Shown: positions 5,456 to 26,634 of the stretch, piece by piece
Layout: each line of letters opens with the position of its first letter
How positions within the stretch are numbered: position 1 is the stretch's first letter
NCBI RefSeq assembly: GCF_025175675.1
Contig: NZ_JANIOA010000012.1
Location: 1 to 64,000 of the forward strand
DNA from: Sedimenticola hydrogenitrophicus
GTDB lineage: Bacteria > Pseudomonadota > Gammaproteobacteria > Chromatiales > Chromatiaceae
Length of the DNA stretch: 64,000 nt
Reading direction: 5' to 3'
Notes under the pieces: model-generated
Database searches by the model: none
What the model saw: only the letters and a program-made list of their open reading frames with translations
Told to the model about the DNA's origin: nothing
Program-made: the position numbers and the translations under genes

Positions 5456-5748
5456 GGCTCTCTCCTTGTCGTGCGCCACGCGCACTCCCGCCGTGGCGTC
5501 CCGGCTTGCGTGGCTGAACGGGTGTTGAGTGGATCACGCGGTCGCTGTCGGCCAAGCCATACCTGATCAATACCATAGAACAAAATGGCGTGAATCGTCG
5601 ACGGATTGGGGCGGGGCGTGCCGGCCAACTGATTGCGGGGTCAAACATCGTTGAATCCGGCGCTGCCACGGCAGCGCTTTTGGGTCGACAGCCACCCGCG
5701 CATTTGCTTGAATAGCGGTCTGTATCGATTCGGGCAGTGATCTCCTCT

Positions 5749-6168
5749 ATGCCGGCACAACATCCACAACAGCGCAGCGGAGTCGTCCGGGTGGCCTACC
5801 TCACCGTGGGCTGGCTGTGCTTCGCGCTGGGCATGCTGGGCGTGGTGCTGCCGGTCCTACCGACAACGCCCTTTCTGCTGCTGGCACTCTGGGCGTTCTC
5901 CCGAAGTTCGCTCCGGTTGCACCGCTGGCTCTACCGGCAGCGGACTTTCGGTCCCGCGCTGCAGCGCTGGCACCAGCACCGGATCATCCCGCTGCATGCC
6001 AAGCTGTTGATTGCACTGACCATGTCGGCCAGTCTGGTCTACCTCACCGGATTCAGCCGCCTGCCGATGCTCATCATCTGGGCGGTCGCATTGATCATGC
6101 TGACGGTGGCGACCTATCTGTTGTCCCGGCCCTCCCGGCTCAAGGGAGAGAAGCAGCGGACCGAGTAA
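5749..6168 (+). CDS. DUF454 (YbaN-like) inner membrane protein
   Basis: About 139 residues from ATG 5749; a GTG four codons upstream is an alternative. It has the YbaN/DUF454 arrangement: an N-terminal hydrophobic hairpin with GVVLPVLPTTPFLLLALWAF, a basic cytoplasmic region (RSSLRLHRWLYRQRTFGP) and two further hydrophobic stretches ending in a positively charged tail. Its function is unknown. The next gene (OsmC-like) is 102 nt downstream. Confidence 0.88.
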   Translation: MPAQHPQQRSGVVRVAYLTVGWLCFALGMLGVVLPVLPTTPFLLLALWAFSRSSLRLHRWLYRQRTFGPALQRWHQHRIIPLHAKLLIALTMSASLVYLTGFSRLPMLIIWAVALIMLTVATYLLSRPSRLKGEKQRTE

Positions 6169-14438: not shown

Positions 14439-14455
14439 TTGGCACAGTCGCTGCA
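14439..14455 (+). promoter_or_regulatory. sigma-54 promoter for nasT
   Basis: TTGGCACAGTCGCTGCA matches the -24/-12 consensus (TGGCAC...TTGC) with the required 12-nt spacing between the GG and GC doublets. Transcription would start near 14466, leaving a ~109-nt leader before nasT. No clear NtrC dyad was found just upstream, where repeat copy 1 sits. Confidence 0.65.
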
Positions 14456-14574: not shown

Positions 14575-15150
14575 ATGCCGCGCGTATTGGTGATCAATGA
14601 ATGTGTGGAGCATGCCGGACGGCTGCAACAGGCGCTGCTGGAGAATGGTCACGAGGTGCTGGCGACGCGCCTGCTGTCCGAGCAGTGGATCGGGCAGATT
14701 GAGGCCCTGCAACCCGATCTGGTGGTGATGGATATCGCGCTTCCCGATTCGCGGCTGCTGGATCAGATCCGCACCATCAGCAGCCGATGGCCGCGTCCGG
14801 TGGTGATATTTGCCGATCAGGACGACAGTGAAATCATGGCCGCGGCGGTGGATGCCGGCGTGCATGCCTATGTGGTGGATGGGTTTGATGGCCGGCGCCT
14901 GGGATCCATCCTCGACGTGGCGGTGGCGCGTTTTCGCGTGTACCAGACCCTGCGCGATGAGCTGGACCGAACCCGCAGTTCGTTACGGGAACGCAAGCTT
15001 GTGGACCGCGCCAAGGGCATCCTGATGAACAAACGCCACTGGTCTGAGGAGCAGGCCTATCGGGCATTGCAGAAGATGGCCATGGACCAGAATCGGCGCC
15101 TGGCGGATGTGGCCGAGCGGCTGATCGAGATGTCTGAGCTTTTCGAATGA
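14575..15150 (+). CDS. nasT: ANTAR-domain response regulator (NasT-type antiterminator)
   Basis: 191 residues from ATG 14575 (SD GGGAGAGGGG). The N-terminal pseudo-receiver domain (VLVINECVEHAGRLQQALLENGHEV, LVVMDIALPDSRLLDQI) is followed by a helical linker and the RNA-binding ANTAR domain (LVDRAKGILMNKRHWSEEQAYRALQKMAMDQNRRLADVAERLI). NasT-type proteins bind paired hexaloop hairpins in nitrate-assimilation leaders and prevent termination. Exactly such hairpins lie 207 nt downstream, in front of nrtA. Its usual sensor partner NasS is not adjacent, although the NrtA homologue resembles NasS. Confidence 0.93.
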   Translation: MPRVLVINECVEHAGRLQQALLENGHEVLATRLLSEQWIGQIEALQPDLVVMDIALPDSRLLDQIRTISSRWPRPVVIFADQDDSEIMAAAVDAGVHAYVVDGFDGRRLGSILDVAVARFRVYQTLRDELDRTRSSLRERKLVDRAKGILMNKRHWSEEQAYRALQKMAMDQNRRLADVAERLIEMSELFE

Positions 15151-15163
15151 AGTGCACGCTCCC

Positions 15164-15199
15164 TGGGCGCCAGCGGTGCACAGGCACCGGAATTGTGCA
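15164..15199 (+). promoter_or_regulatory. tandem candidate NtrC sites upstream of nrtA
   Basis: Two 17-bp dyads fit TGCACC-N5-GGTGCA: 15164-15180 with a perfect right half (GGTGCA) and a degenerate left half, and 15183-15199 (GGCACCGGAATTGTGCA) with both halves good. Their centres lie about 140 and 120 nt upstream of the predicted start, a normal enhancer distance for NtrC. Confidence 0.55.
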
Positions 15200-15284: not shown

Positions 15285-15301
15285 TTGGCCCGCACCTTGC
15301 A
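15285..15301 (+). promoter_or_regulatory. sigma-54 promoter for nrtABD
   Basis: TTGGCCCGCACCTTGCA has the GG/GC doublets 12 nt apart and a perfect TTGCA at -12. The predicted start is near 15312, placing both ANTAR hairpins and the terminator in the leader. An additional hairpin (15322-15344, arms CGAAAC/GTTTCG) lies between start and hairpin 1. Confidence 0.7.
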
Positions 15302-15356
15302 GTAACAGCGGTTAACTGAATCGAAACGCCCGCGGGCGGTTTCGAAGCTGATCAAC

Positions 15357-15397
15357 GACAGGCCAACGGCGGTCTGTCAAAACGGACAAAGGCGTCC
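15357..15397 (+). promoter_or_regulatory. ANTAR target: two hexaloop hairpins
   Basis: Hairpin 1 spans 15357-15378: 8-bp stem GACAGGCC/GGTCTGTC (one G-U) with loop AACGGC. Hairpin 2 spans 15384-15397: stem GGAC/GTCC with loop AAAGGC. Both six-base loops have A at position 1 and G at position 4, the two invariant bases of ANTAR-recognised RNA, and a 5-nt linker joins them. A terminator follows 15 nt later. Confidence 0.9.
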
Positions 15398-15412
15398 ATT
15401 ACAACGGGTCTG

Positions 15413-15438
15413 GCACCCGCTGTGGTGGGCGCTTTTTT
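15413..15438 (+). terminator. intrinsic terminator of the nrt leader (attenuator)
   Basis: GC-rich stem 15413-15432 (GCACCCGC...GGTGGGCGC with one A-C mismatch, TGTG loop) followed directly by six T residues. Lying between the ANTAR hairpins and nrtA, it should stop transcription unless NasT binds the leader. Confidence 0.88.
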
Positions 15439-15466
15439 ATTTTCTGGCCATTTAGGAGAGCAAGAG

Positions 15467-16900
15467 ATGAAAAAGTGCCATCAAGTGGGTGATACAACAG
15501 CAAGTCAGGCGCTGCCGGCGCGGCGGGGTCCCCTCCGCGCCATGCGCTCGGTGCTGCTGTGCGCGGGGATTGTCGCCGCTGCGGCGCTGACTGCGAACAG
15601 CGCGGCCGCCGCAGTGGGACCGGCCGAAAAGGAGGATCTCAAATTCGGCTTCATCAAGTTGACGGACATGGCACCGCTGGCCATCGCCTATGAGAAAGGC
15701 TACTTCGAGGATGAGGGGCTCTATGTCACGCTGGAAGCGCAGGCCAACTGGAAAGTGCTGCTCGACCGGGTGATCGACGGCGAGCTGGACGGGGCGCACA
15801 TGCTCGCCGGTCAGCCGCTCGGCGCCACCATCGGCTTCGGTACCCAGGCGCATGTCATTACCGCCTTTTCCATGGACCTGAACGGTAACGCGATCACCGT
15901 CTCCAACGATATCTGGGAACAGATGAAGCCGCATGTGCCGCACGAGAACGGCCTACCGGTGCATCCGATCAAGGCGGATGCCCTGAAGCCGGTGGTGGAG
16001 AAATTCAAGGACCAGGGCAAGCCGTTCAAGATGGGTATGGTGTTCCCGGTCTCCACTCACAACTACGAACTGCGCTACTGGCTGGCCGCCGGCGGCATCC
16101 ACCCCGGCTTCTATGCACCGGCCAAGGGCGACACCAGCGGTAATATCAATGCGGATGCCCTGCTTTCGGTCACGCCGCCGCCACAGATGCCATCCACCAT
16201 GGAGGCCGGCACCATCAACGGTTACTGCGTGGGCGAACCCTGGAACCAGCAGGCGGTGTTCAAGGGTATCGGCGTGCCGGTGATTACCGATTACGAGATC
16301 TGGAAGGACAATCCGGAGAAGGTGTTCGGCGTGTCCAAGAGCTGGGCCGATGAAAATCCCAACACCCATATCCGGGTGGTCAAGGCGATGATCCGTGCCG
16401 CCAAGTGGCTGGACGACAACAACAATGCCAATCGCCCCGAGGCGGTGAAGATCCTCTCCCAGCCCAACTATGTGGGCGCCGACTACGAGGTGATCGCCAA
16501 CTCCATGACCGGTACCTTCGAGTACGAGAAGGGCGACAAACGTGAGGTGCCGGACTTCAACGTCTTCTTCCGTTACAACGCCACCTATCCCTACTACTCC
16601 GATGCCATCTGGTACCTGACCCAGATGCGCCGCTGGGGGCAGATCGGCGAGCAGAAGGCGGACAGCTGGTACATGGACATCGCCAAAAAGGTGTATCGCC
16701 CGGATATCTATCAGACGGCGGCCAGGGAACTGATTGCCGAAGGCAAGATTGCCGCCGGCGAATTCCCCGACTTCGCGGCTGAAGATGGCTTCCGTGCGCC
16801 CCAGACCCACTTCATCGACGGCATTACCTACAACGGCAAACAGCCGAATGAATACCTGGAGCAGTTCAAGATCGGACTCAAGGGTGCTGACAAAATCTAA
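15467..16900 (+). CDS. nrtA: nitrate ABC transporter substrate-binding protein (NrtA-like)
   Basis: 477 residues from ATG 15467 behind AGGAGAGCAAGAG. A long N-region with an RR pair and a hydrophobic core ([22 protein letters not shown]) forms an export signal. The mature part is of the NrtA/CmpA family: [28 protein letters not shown], a ligand-pocket [10 protein letters not shown] region and [13 protein letters not shown]. It would capture nitrate (or nitrite/cyanate) in the periplasm. The ANTAR leader in front argues for nitrate/nitrite. No assimilatory reductase genes are nearby. Confidence 0.9.
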
Positions 16901-16962: not shown

Positions 16963-17985
16963 ATGAGCACAACAATCATCAATCCAGGCAAGAGTTTTGA
17001 CTTTAAGTGGCTGCAGTTGCTGTTCGCCTTTCTCGAGGGCGATCGGCTGGTCAAGGCCACCTCGTCACTGGTCAGGCAACTGCTGATTCCCCTCGCCGCG
17101 CTGGGTCTGTTCCTGATGCTGTGGAGTGCCGGGGCCGCCTCGGTCACCACCTCGCTGGGACAGCTGCCCGGGCCGGCGCAGGTGTGGGATCAGGGTGTGC
17201 AACTGTACCAGGAGCATCAGGCGGAGCGGCAGAAGGAAGTCGCCTTTTACCAGCGCCAGGAGCAGCGCAACCAGGCCAAACTGGCGAAGAACCCGGATGC
17301 CGAGGTCAAGGTGCGCCCCTATACCGGCAAGCCGACCTTCCTGGATCAGATTGCCACCAGTCTGGTGACCGTGGCGACCGGCTTTATCATCGCCTCGTTG
17401 ATCGCCATCCCGATCGGCATCATCTGTGGCATGAGCGCCACCCTGTACCGGGCGATCAATCCGCTCATCCAGCTGTTCAAGCCGGTCTCGCCGCTGGCCT
17501 GGCTGCCGATCGTCACCATGGTGGTGAGCGCGGTCTACATCAGCGATGAACCAATGTTCGACAAGGCGTTCATCACCTCGGCCATCACCGTCACCCTGTG
17601 CTGTATCTGGCCCACCATTATCAATACCACGGTGGGAGTCTCCTCGATCGACCGGGACCTGATCAACGTCAGCCGGGTGCTGCGTCTCGGCTGGTTGACC
17701 AAGACCATCAAGATTGTCATCCCGTCATCGATACCGATGATGTTTGCCGGCCTGCGCCTCTCCCTGGGCATCGGCTGGATGGTGCTGATCGCCGCCGAGA
17801 TGCTGGCGCAGAATCCCGGGCTCGGCAAGTTTGTCTGGGACGAATTTCAGAACGGCAGCTCCAATTCACTGTCGCGCATCATGGTCGCGGTACTGGTGAT
17901 CGGTTGTCTTGGTTTCATACTGGATCGCGGCATGCTGCTGTTGCAGCGCTGGGCCACCTGGGACCGCAATGCGGTACTGCGATAA
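16963..17985 (+). CDS. nrtB: nitrate ABC transporter permease (NrtB-like)
   Basis: 340 residues. It has the inner-membrane permease fold of the NrtB/SsuC/TauC family with the EAA-like loop DLINVSRVLRLGWLTKTIKIVIPSSIPMMFAGLRLSLGIGWMVLIAAEML. It is longer than typical NrtB (~280). The excess is a charged segment of ~55 residues after the first membrane span (LYQEHQAERQKEVAFYQRQEQRNQAKL...), probably a soluble loop. It follows nrtA by 62 nt and precedes the ATPase by 11 nt. Confidence 0.92.
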   Translation: MSTTIINPGKSFDFKWLQLLFAFLEGDRLVKATSSLVRQLLIPLAALGLFLMLWSAGAASVTTSLGQLPGPAQVWDQGVQLYQEHQAERQKEVAFYQRQEQRNQAKLAKNPDAEVKVRPYTGKPTFLDQIATSLVTVATGFIIASLIAIPIGIICGMSATLYRAINPLIQLFKPVSPLAWLPIVTMVVSAVYISDEPMFDKAFITSAITVTLCCIWPTIINTTVGVSSIDRDLINVSRVLRLGWLTKTIKIVIPSSIPMMFAGLRLSLGIGWMVLIAAEMLAQNPGLGKFVWDEFQNGSSNSLSRIMVAVLVIGCLGFILDRGMLLLQRWATWDRNAVLR

Positions 17986-17996
17986 GGAGCAATCAC

Positions 17997-18875
17997 ATGA
18001 ATAATTACCTGAGTCTGGAAAATATCAGTATCACTTTCGCCACCGACAATGGGCCGTTGAATGTGCTCGATGATGTCTCGCTGAAGGTGGATCAGGGGGA
18101 GTTTATCTCCCTGATTGGCCACTCCGGTTGCGGCAAGTCGACGGTGCTCAATATCGTCGCCGGGCTGCTCAATGCCACCACCGGTGGGGTGCTGCTGGAG
18201 AACCGCGAAGTGACGGAACCGGGACCGGATCGCGCGGTGGTGTTTCAGAATCACTCCCTGCTGCCCTGGCTCTCGGTCTACGACAACGTAAGACTGGCGG
18301 TCGACCAGGTGTTCGGCAAGCAGAAGAGCCGGCAGGAGCGTCACGAGTGGACCCTGCACAACCTGGAACTGGTGCATATGGGGCACGCCATCGAACGGCG
18401 CCCCGACGAGATCTCCGGCGGCATGAAACAGCGGGTCGGTATCGCCCGGGCCCTGGCCATGGAGCCCAAGGTGCTGCTGATGGACGAACCCTTCGGCGCG
18501 CTGGACTCATTGACCCGCACCCACATGCAGGACTCCCTGATGGAGATCCAGGGCGAGCTCAACAACACGGTGATCATGATCACCCATGACGTGGACGAGG
18601 CGGTGCTGCTCTCGGACCGTATCGTGATGATGACCAATGGCCCGTCCGCCACGATCGGCGAGATCCTCGCCATCGAGCTGGAGCGCCCGCGTCTGCGCCT
18701 GCAACTGGCGGATGATCCGACCTACAACCACTACCGTGCCGAGGTGCTGCGCTTCCTGCATGACCGCCACGCCCAGCCGGATGTGCCCACCGGAAAACCG
18801 GCCAAGACTCCGGAAGTGGCAGCCGAAGCGCCGGCGGAAGAGCGGCCCGCCAGGCTGAAACTGGCCACGGGTTGA
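17997..18875 (+). CDS. nrtD: nitrate ABC transporter ATP-binding protein (NrtD-like)
   Basis: 292 residues from ATG 17997 (SD AAGGAGCAATC). Walker A is GHSGCGKST, the signature is ISGGMKQRVGIARALAMEPKVLLMDEPFGALDSLTR with Walker B, and the H-loop is ITHDVDEAV. It lacks the binding-protein-like extension of cyanobacterial NrtC, so one ATPase probably serves the whole transporter as a homodimer. A Pro/Ala-rich C-terminal tail of ~35 residues is unusual for the family. Confidence 0.92.
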   Translation: MNNYLSLENISITFATDNGPLNVLDDVSLKVDQGEFISLIGHSGCGKSTVLNIVAGLLNATTGGVLLENREVTEPGPDRAVVFQNHSLLPWLSVYDNVRLAVDQVFGKQKSRQERHEWTLHNLELVHMGHAIERRPDEISGGMKQRVGIARALAMEPKVLLMDEPFGALDSLTRTHMQDSLMEIQGELNNTVIMITHDVDEAVLLSDRIVMMTNGPSATIGEILAIELERPRLRLQLADDPTYNHYRAEVLRFLHDRHAQPDVPTGKPAKTPEVAAEAPAEERPARLKLATG

Positions 18876-25467: not shown

Positions 25468-26634
25468 ATGAAACATAAACGCTTACTACAATTTGTGGTC
25501 CTGCTCCTGGTCCCTGCAATCGTCGCAGGCGGCGCATGGGCATTGATGCTCAGGCCTGTGGGCATCCAGGTCGCCGAAACCGACCGCAATGTGCCGATCC
25601 AGGTCTTCGGTTTGGGGACGGTGGAGACAAGAATCCTGTCGCGGGTGGGTTTCGAGGCGGCTGGCACGCTCATCGAGCTGCACGCGGATTATGGCGATCG
25701 GGTCGTGGCCGGAACCTTGCTCGCGCGGCTCGACAGCCGCGAGCAGGAGGCCCGGGTCGCGCAGGCACGGGCTGCGGTAGCGCAAGCCGAATCAGCGATC
25801 CATCAGGCCGCCGCCACGATCAAGCGCGCGCAGGCGAATCTGACACAAAAAGCACAGGCCAATGAGCGGCGTCAGGATCTGGTCCAGGAGGGCAGCGTGT
25901 CGATCGAAGCAGCGCAGGACGCGCAATCGGCGTACGACATGGCCCGCGCCGAGCTTGCGCAGGCGCAGAGCGCCTTGGAGGTTGCGCGTGCCAACCTCGA
26001 GCAGGAGAAGGCTCAGGCGGCGTTCGAAAAAGCGCGGCTCGCGAAATACGCGCTCTACACGCCTTACGATGCCATCGTGGTTTCGCGCAATCGCGAATTG
26101 GGCTCGATGCTGACCCCGGGTGAACAGCTCTTTACGCTGGTGGACCCCAAGACGGTCTGGGTGCTTGCTTATGTCGATGAGGCGAAGGCCGGTCAGTTGC
26201 ACGTCGGCCAGCAGGCGGAGGTCACCTTCCGCTCCCTGGCCGACCGCCGGTTCTCGGGACGGGTCGCGCGGATCGATATCGAGAGTGACCGGGTTAACGA
26301 GGAGCGGCGGGTCTATGTCCGGTGCGATGCTTGTCCCGCCGAGTTCTATCTCGGCGAACAGGCGGAGGTGGTCATCACGGTCAATGAGCTCGCCGAGGCA
26401 CGCCTCGTGCCGCAGATCGCCGTGACCGGCCTGGAGGGACGGCATGGCGTCGTCTGGACGGTCGAAGACGGCCAACTTGCCCAGCACGCCGTCGTGTTCG
26501 GCCAGCGTACACTGGACGGGCGCCTGGAGATTGTTGACGGGCTTCCGCCCGGCGCTGAGGTCATCGTCCAACCTGAGGCGGGGCTCAGGGTCGGCCGGAA
26601 GGTCACTGTGAATCGCGCCGGAGGGCAGCCATGA
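25468..26634 (+). CDS. DevB-like membrane fusion protein of an ABC exporter
   Basis: 388 residues. An N-terminal membrane anchor (LLQFVVLLLVPAIVAGGAWALML) is followed by a biotinyl-lipoyl half motif (GFEAAGTLIELHADYGDRVVAGTLLARLDSRE), a long alpha-hairpin coiled coil (residues ~85-200, Ala/Gln/Glu heptads) and beta-barrel domains. This is the HlyD/MacA-type adaptor that links an inner-membrane ABC pump to an outer-membrane channel. The next gene overlaps by 4 nt. Order adaptor-permease-ATPase equals devBCA. Confidence 0.88.
   Translation: MKHKRLLQFVVLLLVPAIVAGGAWALMLRPVGIQVAETDRNVPIQVFGLGTVETRILSRVGFEAAGTLIELHADYGDRVVAGTLLARLDSREQEARVAQARAAVAQAESAIHQAAATIKRAQANLTQKAQANERRQDLVQEGSVSIEAAQDAQSAYDMARAELAQAQSALEVARANLEQEKAQAAFEKARLAKYALYTPYDAIVVSRNRELGSMLTPGEQLFTLVDPKTVWVLAYVDEAKAGQLHVGQQAEVTFRSLADRRFSGRVARIDIESDRVNEERRVYVRCDACPAEFYLGEQAEVVITVNELAEARLVPQIAVTGLEGRHGVVWTVEDGQLAQHAVVFGQRTLDGRLEIVDGLPPGAEVIVQPEAGLRVGRKVTVNRAGGQP

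Follow-up and report, generated by a model that had tools for sequence, protein, structure and literature searches.

How is an antiterminator that is known to be sequestered by NasS controlled where NasS is missing? In Paracoccus, cytoplasmic NasS senses nitrate and holds NasT inactive (PMC3795266). The question is raised here by a 64,000-nt window (the whole stretch of DNA that was analysed), in which nasT is followed by the genes of the nitrate importer nrtABD, and we consider it very likely that the stretch between them is a sigma-54-driven ANTAR attenuator of these genes. The original prediction had described two hairpins with hexaloops AACGGC and AAAGGC, A1 and G4 being present in both, and these were confirmed base for base. 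The 5-nt linker and the intrinsic terminator with six T that it had also described were found in the sequence as stated, and the ANTAR-protein gene that it had placed directly upstream of the leader is nasT (Table 1). The product of nasT is 95% identical to the NasT of the close relative Sedimenticola hydrogenitrophicus.

Table 1. Features of the nasT-nrtABD locus (positions are those of the window).
Feature	Position	Strand	Details
Sigma-54 (-24/-12) type promoter of nasT (predicted)	14440-14455	+	TGGCACAGTCGCTGCA; 10 of 12 specified positions
nasT	14575-15150	+	Receiver-like domain PF00072 (E 7e-9); ANTAR PF03861 (E 1.9e-21, 76 bits)
nasT-nrtA gap			316 nt; leader with P1, linker, P2 and terminator
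Candidate NtrC site	15184-15198	+	GCACC-N5-TGTGC; also in L032 and L033
Sigma-54 promoter of leader/nrtABD (predicted)	15286-15301	+	TGGCCCGCACCTTGCA; 11 of 12; best-scoring in window; predicted start ~15312
5' hairpin P0	15321-15345	+	TCGAAAC...GTTTCGA; between promoter and P1; genus-level only
P1 hairpin	15357-15378	+	8 bp; GACAGGCC-AACGGC-GGTCTGTC; hexaloop 15365-15370, A1 and G4
P1-P2 linker	15379-15383	+	AAAAC; 5 nt
P2 hairpin (antiterminator half)	15384-15397	+	4 bp; GGAC-AAAGGC-GTCC; hexaloop 15388-15393, A1 and G4
Intrinsic terminator	15388-15438	+	49-nt hairpin 15388-15436; T6 at 15433-15438
nrtA ribosome-binding site	15454-15458	+	AGGAG; nrtA ATG at 15467
nrtA	15467-16900	+	Nitrate-binding protein, NMT1_2 PF13379 (E 7e-100); N-terminal signal sequence, exported
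nrtB permease	16963-17985	+	PF00528; TIGR01183 161 bits, under cut-off 209
nrtD ATPase	17994-18875	+	TIGR01184 341 bits, over cut-off 292 (nitrate-ATPase model)

Since the 5' arm of the terminator is made up of the loop and 3' arm of P2, while the P2 5' arm lies outside the terminator, P2 and the terminator are mutually exclusive. The minimum free energy fold of 15355-15442 comprised P1 and the terminator (-45.1 kcal/mol, z = -5.9, equalled by 0 of 200 shuffles), and when P2 was held closed the best fold reached -31.3 kcal/mol, as against -45.3 kcal/mol with the terminator. Folding of the growing transcript gave P1 and P2 until the RNA end reached ~15426 and the terminator fold by 15430. A pattern scan for paired A1/G4 hexaloop hairpins (P1 at least 5 bp, P2 at least 4 bp, linker 3-15 nt) returned this pair as its sole match on both strands of the 64 kb; 30 Markov-shuffled windows, scanned on one strand each, gave 12 pairs in total, none with a T run after it. 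Judged by its sequence, the leader between nasT and nrtABD is thus a real, textbook-like RNA switch for stopping or permitting transcription, with NasT binding and antitermination predicted, and its geometry fits that described for ANTAR targets (PMC3369931, PMC8934654). A P0-like hairpin occurs in L032 and L033 and is absent from the other leaders, i.e., it is present in three Sedimenticola leaders only.

Near-consensus predicted sigma-54 promoters stand ahead of nasT as well as ahead of the leader; the original prediction had overlooked them. On both strands of the window only three sites scored at least 10; the third (TGGCCGGAACCTTGCT, position 25706) lies inside an ORF (25468-26634) and is probably due to chance. 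A sigma-54 site was found at the matching place in leaders L032, L033, L034, L023, L038, L039, and L043. Within 360 nt upstream of nasT, a site scoring at least 10 was present in 30 of 38 loci; the reverse strand had one in 2 of 38, and the adjoining 360 nt further upstream had one in 0 of 38. Since these sites precede nasT so often, its expression is itself probably nitrogen-regulated. The GCACC-N5-TGTGC element is a tentative candidate NtrC site, by its resemblance to the NtrC consensus. Since nasT has its own sigma-54 promoter, nitrogen limitation, probably acting via NtrC, would raise NasT and the leader together, and the locus would then behave as a feed-forward AND gate. RNA polymerase would start near 15312, and the emerging RNA would fold P1 and then P2, as in the stepwise folding. 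If P2 is left unheld, the energies suggest that the growing terminator arm would capture the loop of P2 together with its 3' arm, and that transcription would stop at T6. By analogy with the ANTAR family, a NasT dimer seated on the A1/G4 hexaloops would hold P2 and block the terminator, and nrtABD would be transcribed.

Conservation of the leader was examined by locating NasT orthologues in relatives, whose NasT is only 35-55% identical beyond the closest species, and by a pattern search of 369 gammaproteobacterial genomes. Despite this divergence of NasT, the leader was kept. The pattern matched in 17 genomes, compared with 6 for the reversed pattern, among the matches listed. Fifteen of the 17 matches lay directly before NrtA-like, NirB-like, NasA-like, or NarK-like genes by ORF list or alignment, and in the remaining two (L084 and L085) protein alignment showed the leader to be closely followed by an NrtA-like gene. 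For 26 leaders, 11 found by orthology and 15 by pattern, A1 and G4 were invariant in both loops (26/26), a conservation that is partly selected in the 15 pattern-found rows, whose loops are fixed by the pattern, and cleanly tested by the 11 orthology rows. Folding built the terminator from the 3' half of P2 in all 26. Stem cells of the alignment were 96.4% paired, and 29 changes were two-sided. These counts were reached by 0 of 500 shuffles, and slid registers fell far below the true register. Compensatory changes affected both P1 and P2: pair 1 of P2 varied among GC, AU, and CG, and pair 3 changed from A-U to G-C in two orthology-found rows. Since the P2 5' arm is outside the terminator, these pair changes support P2 itself as a selected hairpin. 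The comparison of orthologous leaders thus bore out the original prediction in that both hexaloops were kept, both stems covaried, and the terminator swallowed P2.

In one orthology row (G020) P1 was only 2 bp; the genome behind this row is of poor quality, being 40% complete and having broken genes. A linker of 40-55 nt, often with an inserted hairpin, separated P1 from P2 in L034, L039, L040, L043, L091, and L092, an observation that bears on whether the two hexaloops must sit close together. At L095 (G360), two different nasT genes stand in tandem upstream of a single leader and of an nrtA-like gene with a Tat signal.

Since the hairpin is a strong intrinsic terminator downstream of nasT, it might be regarded as nothing but the nasT terminator, the hexaloop pair being incidental. 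However, it lies 240 nt beyond the end of nasT and has a separate predicted promoter upstream of it; both loops are kept and both stems covary across families; and the leader recurs ahead of narK-like, nirB, and nasA-like genes, in some genomes with no nasT in front. We regard this explanation as very improbable, and read the element as an attenuator.

The relation of the leader to described RNA families was examined with Rfam, which has no family named ANTAR. At gathering thresholds no match was obtained in the window, and a relaxed search was therefore run. RF03032 (narK RNA) then matched 15335-15398 with 33.8 bits (E 6.5e-5), below its gathering score of 43.2, so that the leader is not a formal member; this was nevertheless the best RF03032 match of the genome (next E 0.23), and the covariance-model hit by which the original prediction was to be checked was in this sense obtained. 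The dual-hexaloop element is what the RF03032 consensus (CCAACGGCGG...GACAAAGACGUC) represents, although its structure line pairs P1 only. L094, a leader located downstream of nasS-nasT and upstream of a narK-like gene, scored 55.1, over the threshold of 43.2. RF03032 is therefore the NasT-type ANTAR leader class under another name, the same element with its P2 and terminator unannotated in Rfam.

A second family, RF00625 (P11, a Pseudomonas sRNA), has a consensus that combines a TTGGCAC...CTGCA promoter box, the CAACGNNG loop (CAACG), GGACAAAGGCGUCC, and a terminator. To judge from this consensus, RF00625 probably represents the same ANTAR leader class, which may already be known; its matches to the compared leaders were sub-threshold (31 bits vs 70). 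The two families were seen on L034, L096, and L094 and at 15335-15398 of the window. The leader would thereby connect both families, which bear other names in Rfam, with NasT control. RF00625, entered in Rfam as a gene, describes this same arrangement, and terminated leaders would build up as short RNAs, so the leader could be conceived of as an independently acting small RNA. However, its parts match an attenuator and no target is known for such an sRNA, which makes this a most improbable reading, and we retain the attenuator.

To define the regulon, we built a model (R1) from 16 leaders including the one under study, which scored 59 bits by construction because it was in the training set. 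Genome-wide, R1 found no second leader-like target, the next matches lying inside coding sequence. The weaker RF03032 and R1 matches elsewhere in the genome were attributed to chance, since they fall in coding sequence with no matching terminator. Inspection of the sequence at the divergent nirB/narK-like pair of this genome revealed no hexaloops, and hence no ANTAR leader. From these results, NasT probably regulates nrtABD alone in this genome. The leader is an unusually compact and fully mappable ANTAR attenuator, with its regulator, the two promoters, and what is probably its only target in the genome all lying together. Between the divergent nirB and narK-like genes there is a strong sigma-54 box (TGGCACGGGCAATGCT; L135 5777-5792, G000:C1). 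A further observation concerns the minus strand of L016 (G000:C67:26000-38000) at ~5570-5760: a second ANTAR gene, AmiR-like and beside an AmiC-like gene, has transporter and amidase-like genes after it, and the gap contains two tandem terminators, each with ANTAR-like hexaloops (GAGC-AAGGGA-GCTC and GGGC-AAAGAA-GCCC).

The original prediction went too far in placing every part of the NasT mechanism in this one stretch, since NasS is missing from both locus and genome. No NasS was found in this genome, which is an estimated 100% complete, and the single NMT1_2 protein over the Pfam cut-off is the exported NrtA. A weak NMT1_2 match (C54) was considered as a hidden NasS and rejected: judged from its sequence, it is another kind of binding protein, the TAXI type. 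We also surveyed 80 NasT-bearing gammaproteobacterial genomes, classing each NasT copy by its distance from strong NMT1_2 matches (E 1e-25, a level that a very divergent NasS would escape). A NasS-like neighbour accompanied 17 copies, and for 26 copies in 25 of the 80 genomes the lone strong NMT1_2 gene of the genome lay 246-1447 nt downstream of nasT. Of the other copies, 10 had a downstream NrtA plus further family members, 21 had a member elsewhere (a class that may include NasS), and 8 had none. N-termini were read in 19 genomes, and 18, including all 11 that were read among the 25 with a lone downstream gene, showed a Sec- or Tat-like signal; the NasS control (G045) showed no export signal. 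NasS is thus missing here and from many related NasT-bearing genomes; the resolution of the NasT tree is too low for NasS losses to be counted on it.

With NasS absent, other inputs to NasT come into question. Phosphorylation was considered as a means of control and judged unlikely, since the receiver lysine position is D or G in 38 of 38 aligned NasT and the Asp is also missing from some of the NasS-less ones. One answer is that NasT does not sense nitrate at all: NtrC and sigma-54 would set the amounts of NasT and leader RNA, and the attenuator would delay nrtABD until NasT accumulates. The genome without NasS and the sigma-54 sites found upstream of nasT at 30 of the 38 loci favour this answer, as do the nasS mutants of Paracoccus, which are constitutive for nitrate and still off in ammonium (PMC3795266, PMC5424462), but the kept receiver-like domain suggests that a partner still binds; we rate its chances just short of even. 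The other answer is that NasS has been replaced, the NrtBD/NrtA transporter or another nitrate-binding protein freeing NasT on nitrate. In keeping with a replacement, nasT stays beside leader and nrtA across large distances, NrtA is homologous to NasS (PMC3795266), and the receiver-like shape is conserved although phosphorylation is unlikely. However, since NrtA bears a Sec or Tat signal in these genomes, it should be extracytoplasmic, and a cytoplasmic NrtA made from a later start codon was rejected because the later starts fall inside or before the export signal and none leaves an intact cytoplasmic domain. We hold a replacement of NasS to be possible but rather doubtful.

In a NasS-less genome NasT might be permanently active, in which case the attenuator would mostly track the NasT level. 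As the main input we favour the amount of NasT together with nitrogen status, at roughly even odds; a partner, whether linked to the transporter or not, would come second. We give an even chance to the broader proposal that in much of Gammaproteobacteria NasT works without NasS in a compact nasT-leader-nrtA unit, NasT being controlled by nitrogen status via sigma-54 alone or by the transporter. If this were true, the NasS-NasT paradigm would be a minority arrangement.

The nitrate-assimilation operon nasF of Klebsiella oxytoca is also nitrogen-regulated. In the locus studied here, a predicted -24/-12 promoter, conserved in relatives, precedes the leader. With its A1/G4 hexaloops, compensatory stems, short linker, and a P2 that excludes the terminator, the leader belongs to the known class of ANTAR-target leaders, as a newly recognised copy. 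In the NasS-NasT systems with a nasA leader (Paracoccus denitrificans, Azotobacter, Pseudomonas), a NasT-type ANTAR gene also adjoins a hairpin/terminator leader before nitrate-assimilation genes (PMC3795266, PMC5424462). Of that two-component arrangement, NasT with its receiver-like and ANTAR domains is present here while a cytoplasmic NasS is not, and the target genes (nrtABD) encode an ABC importer instead of belonging to the reductase operon. The NasR/nasF leader of K. oxytoca is similarly a dual-hexaloop ANTAR attenuator of nitrate assimilation (PMC3369931); however, NasR carries its own nitrate-sensing NIT domain, whereas NasT here has a receiver-like domain and no sensor. The EutV/eut leaders of Enterococcus faecalis share the order of P1, short linker, and terminator-overlapping P2, with A1/G4 loops (PMC3369931, PMC8934654). 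Linkers of eut leaders measure 5-12 nt, and lengths of 3 and 14 nt impair induction (PMC3369931); the 5-nt linker of this leader falls within that range, unlike the 40-55 nt of several relatives. EutV is activated by phosphorylation, whereas NasT is without the receiver lysine.
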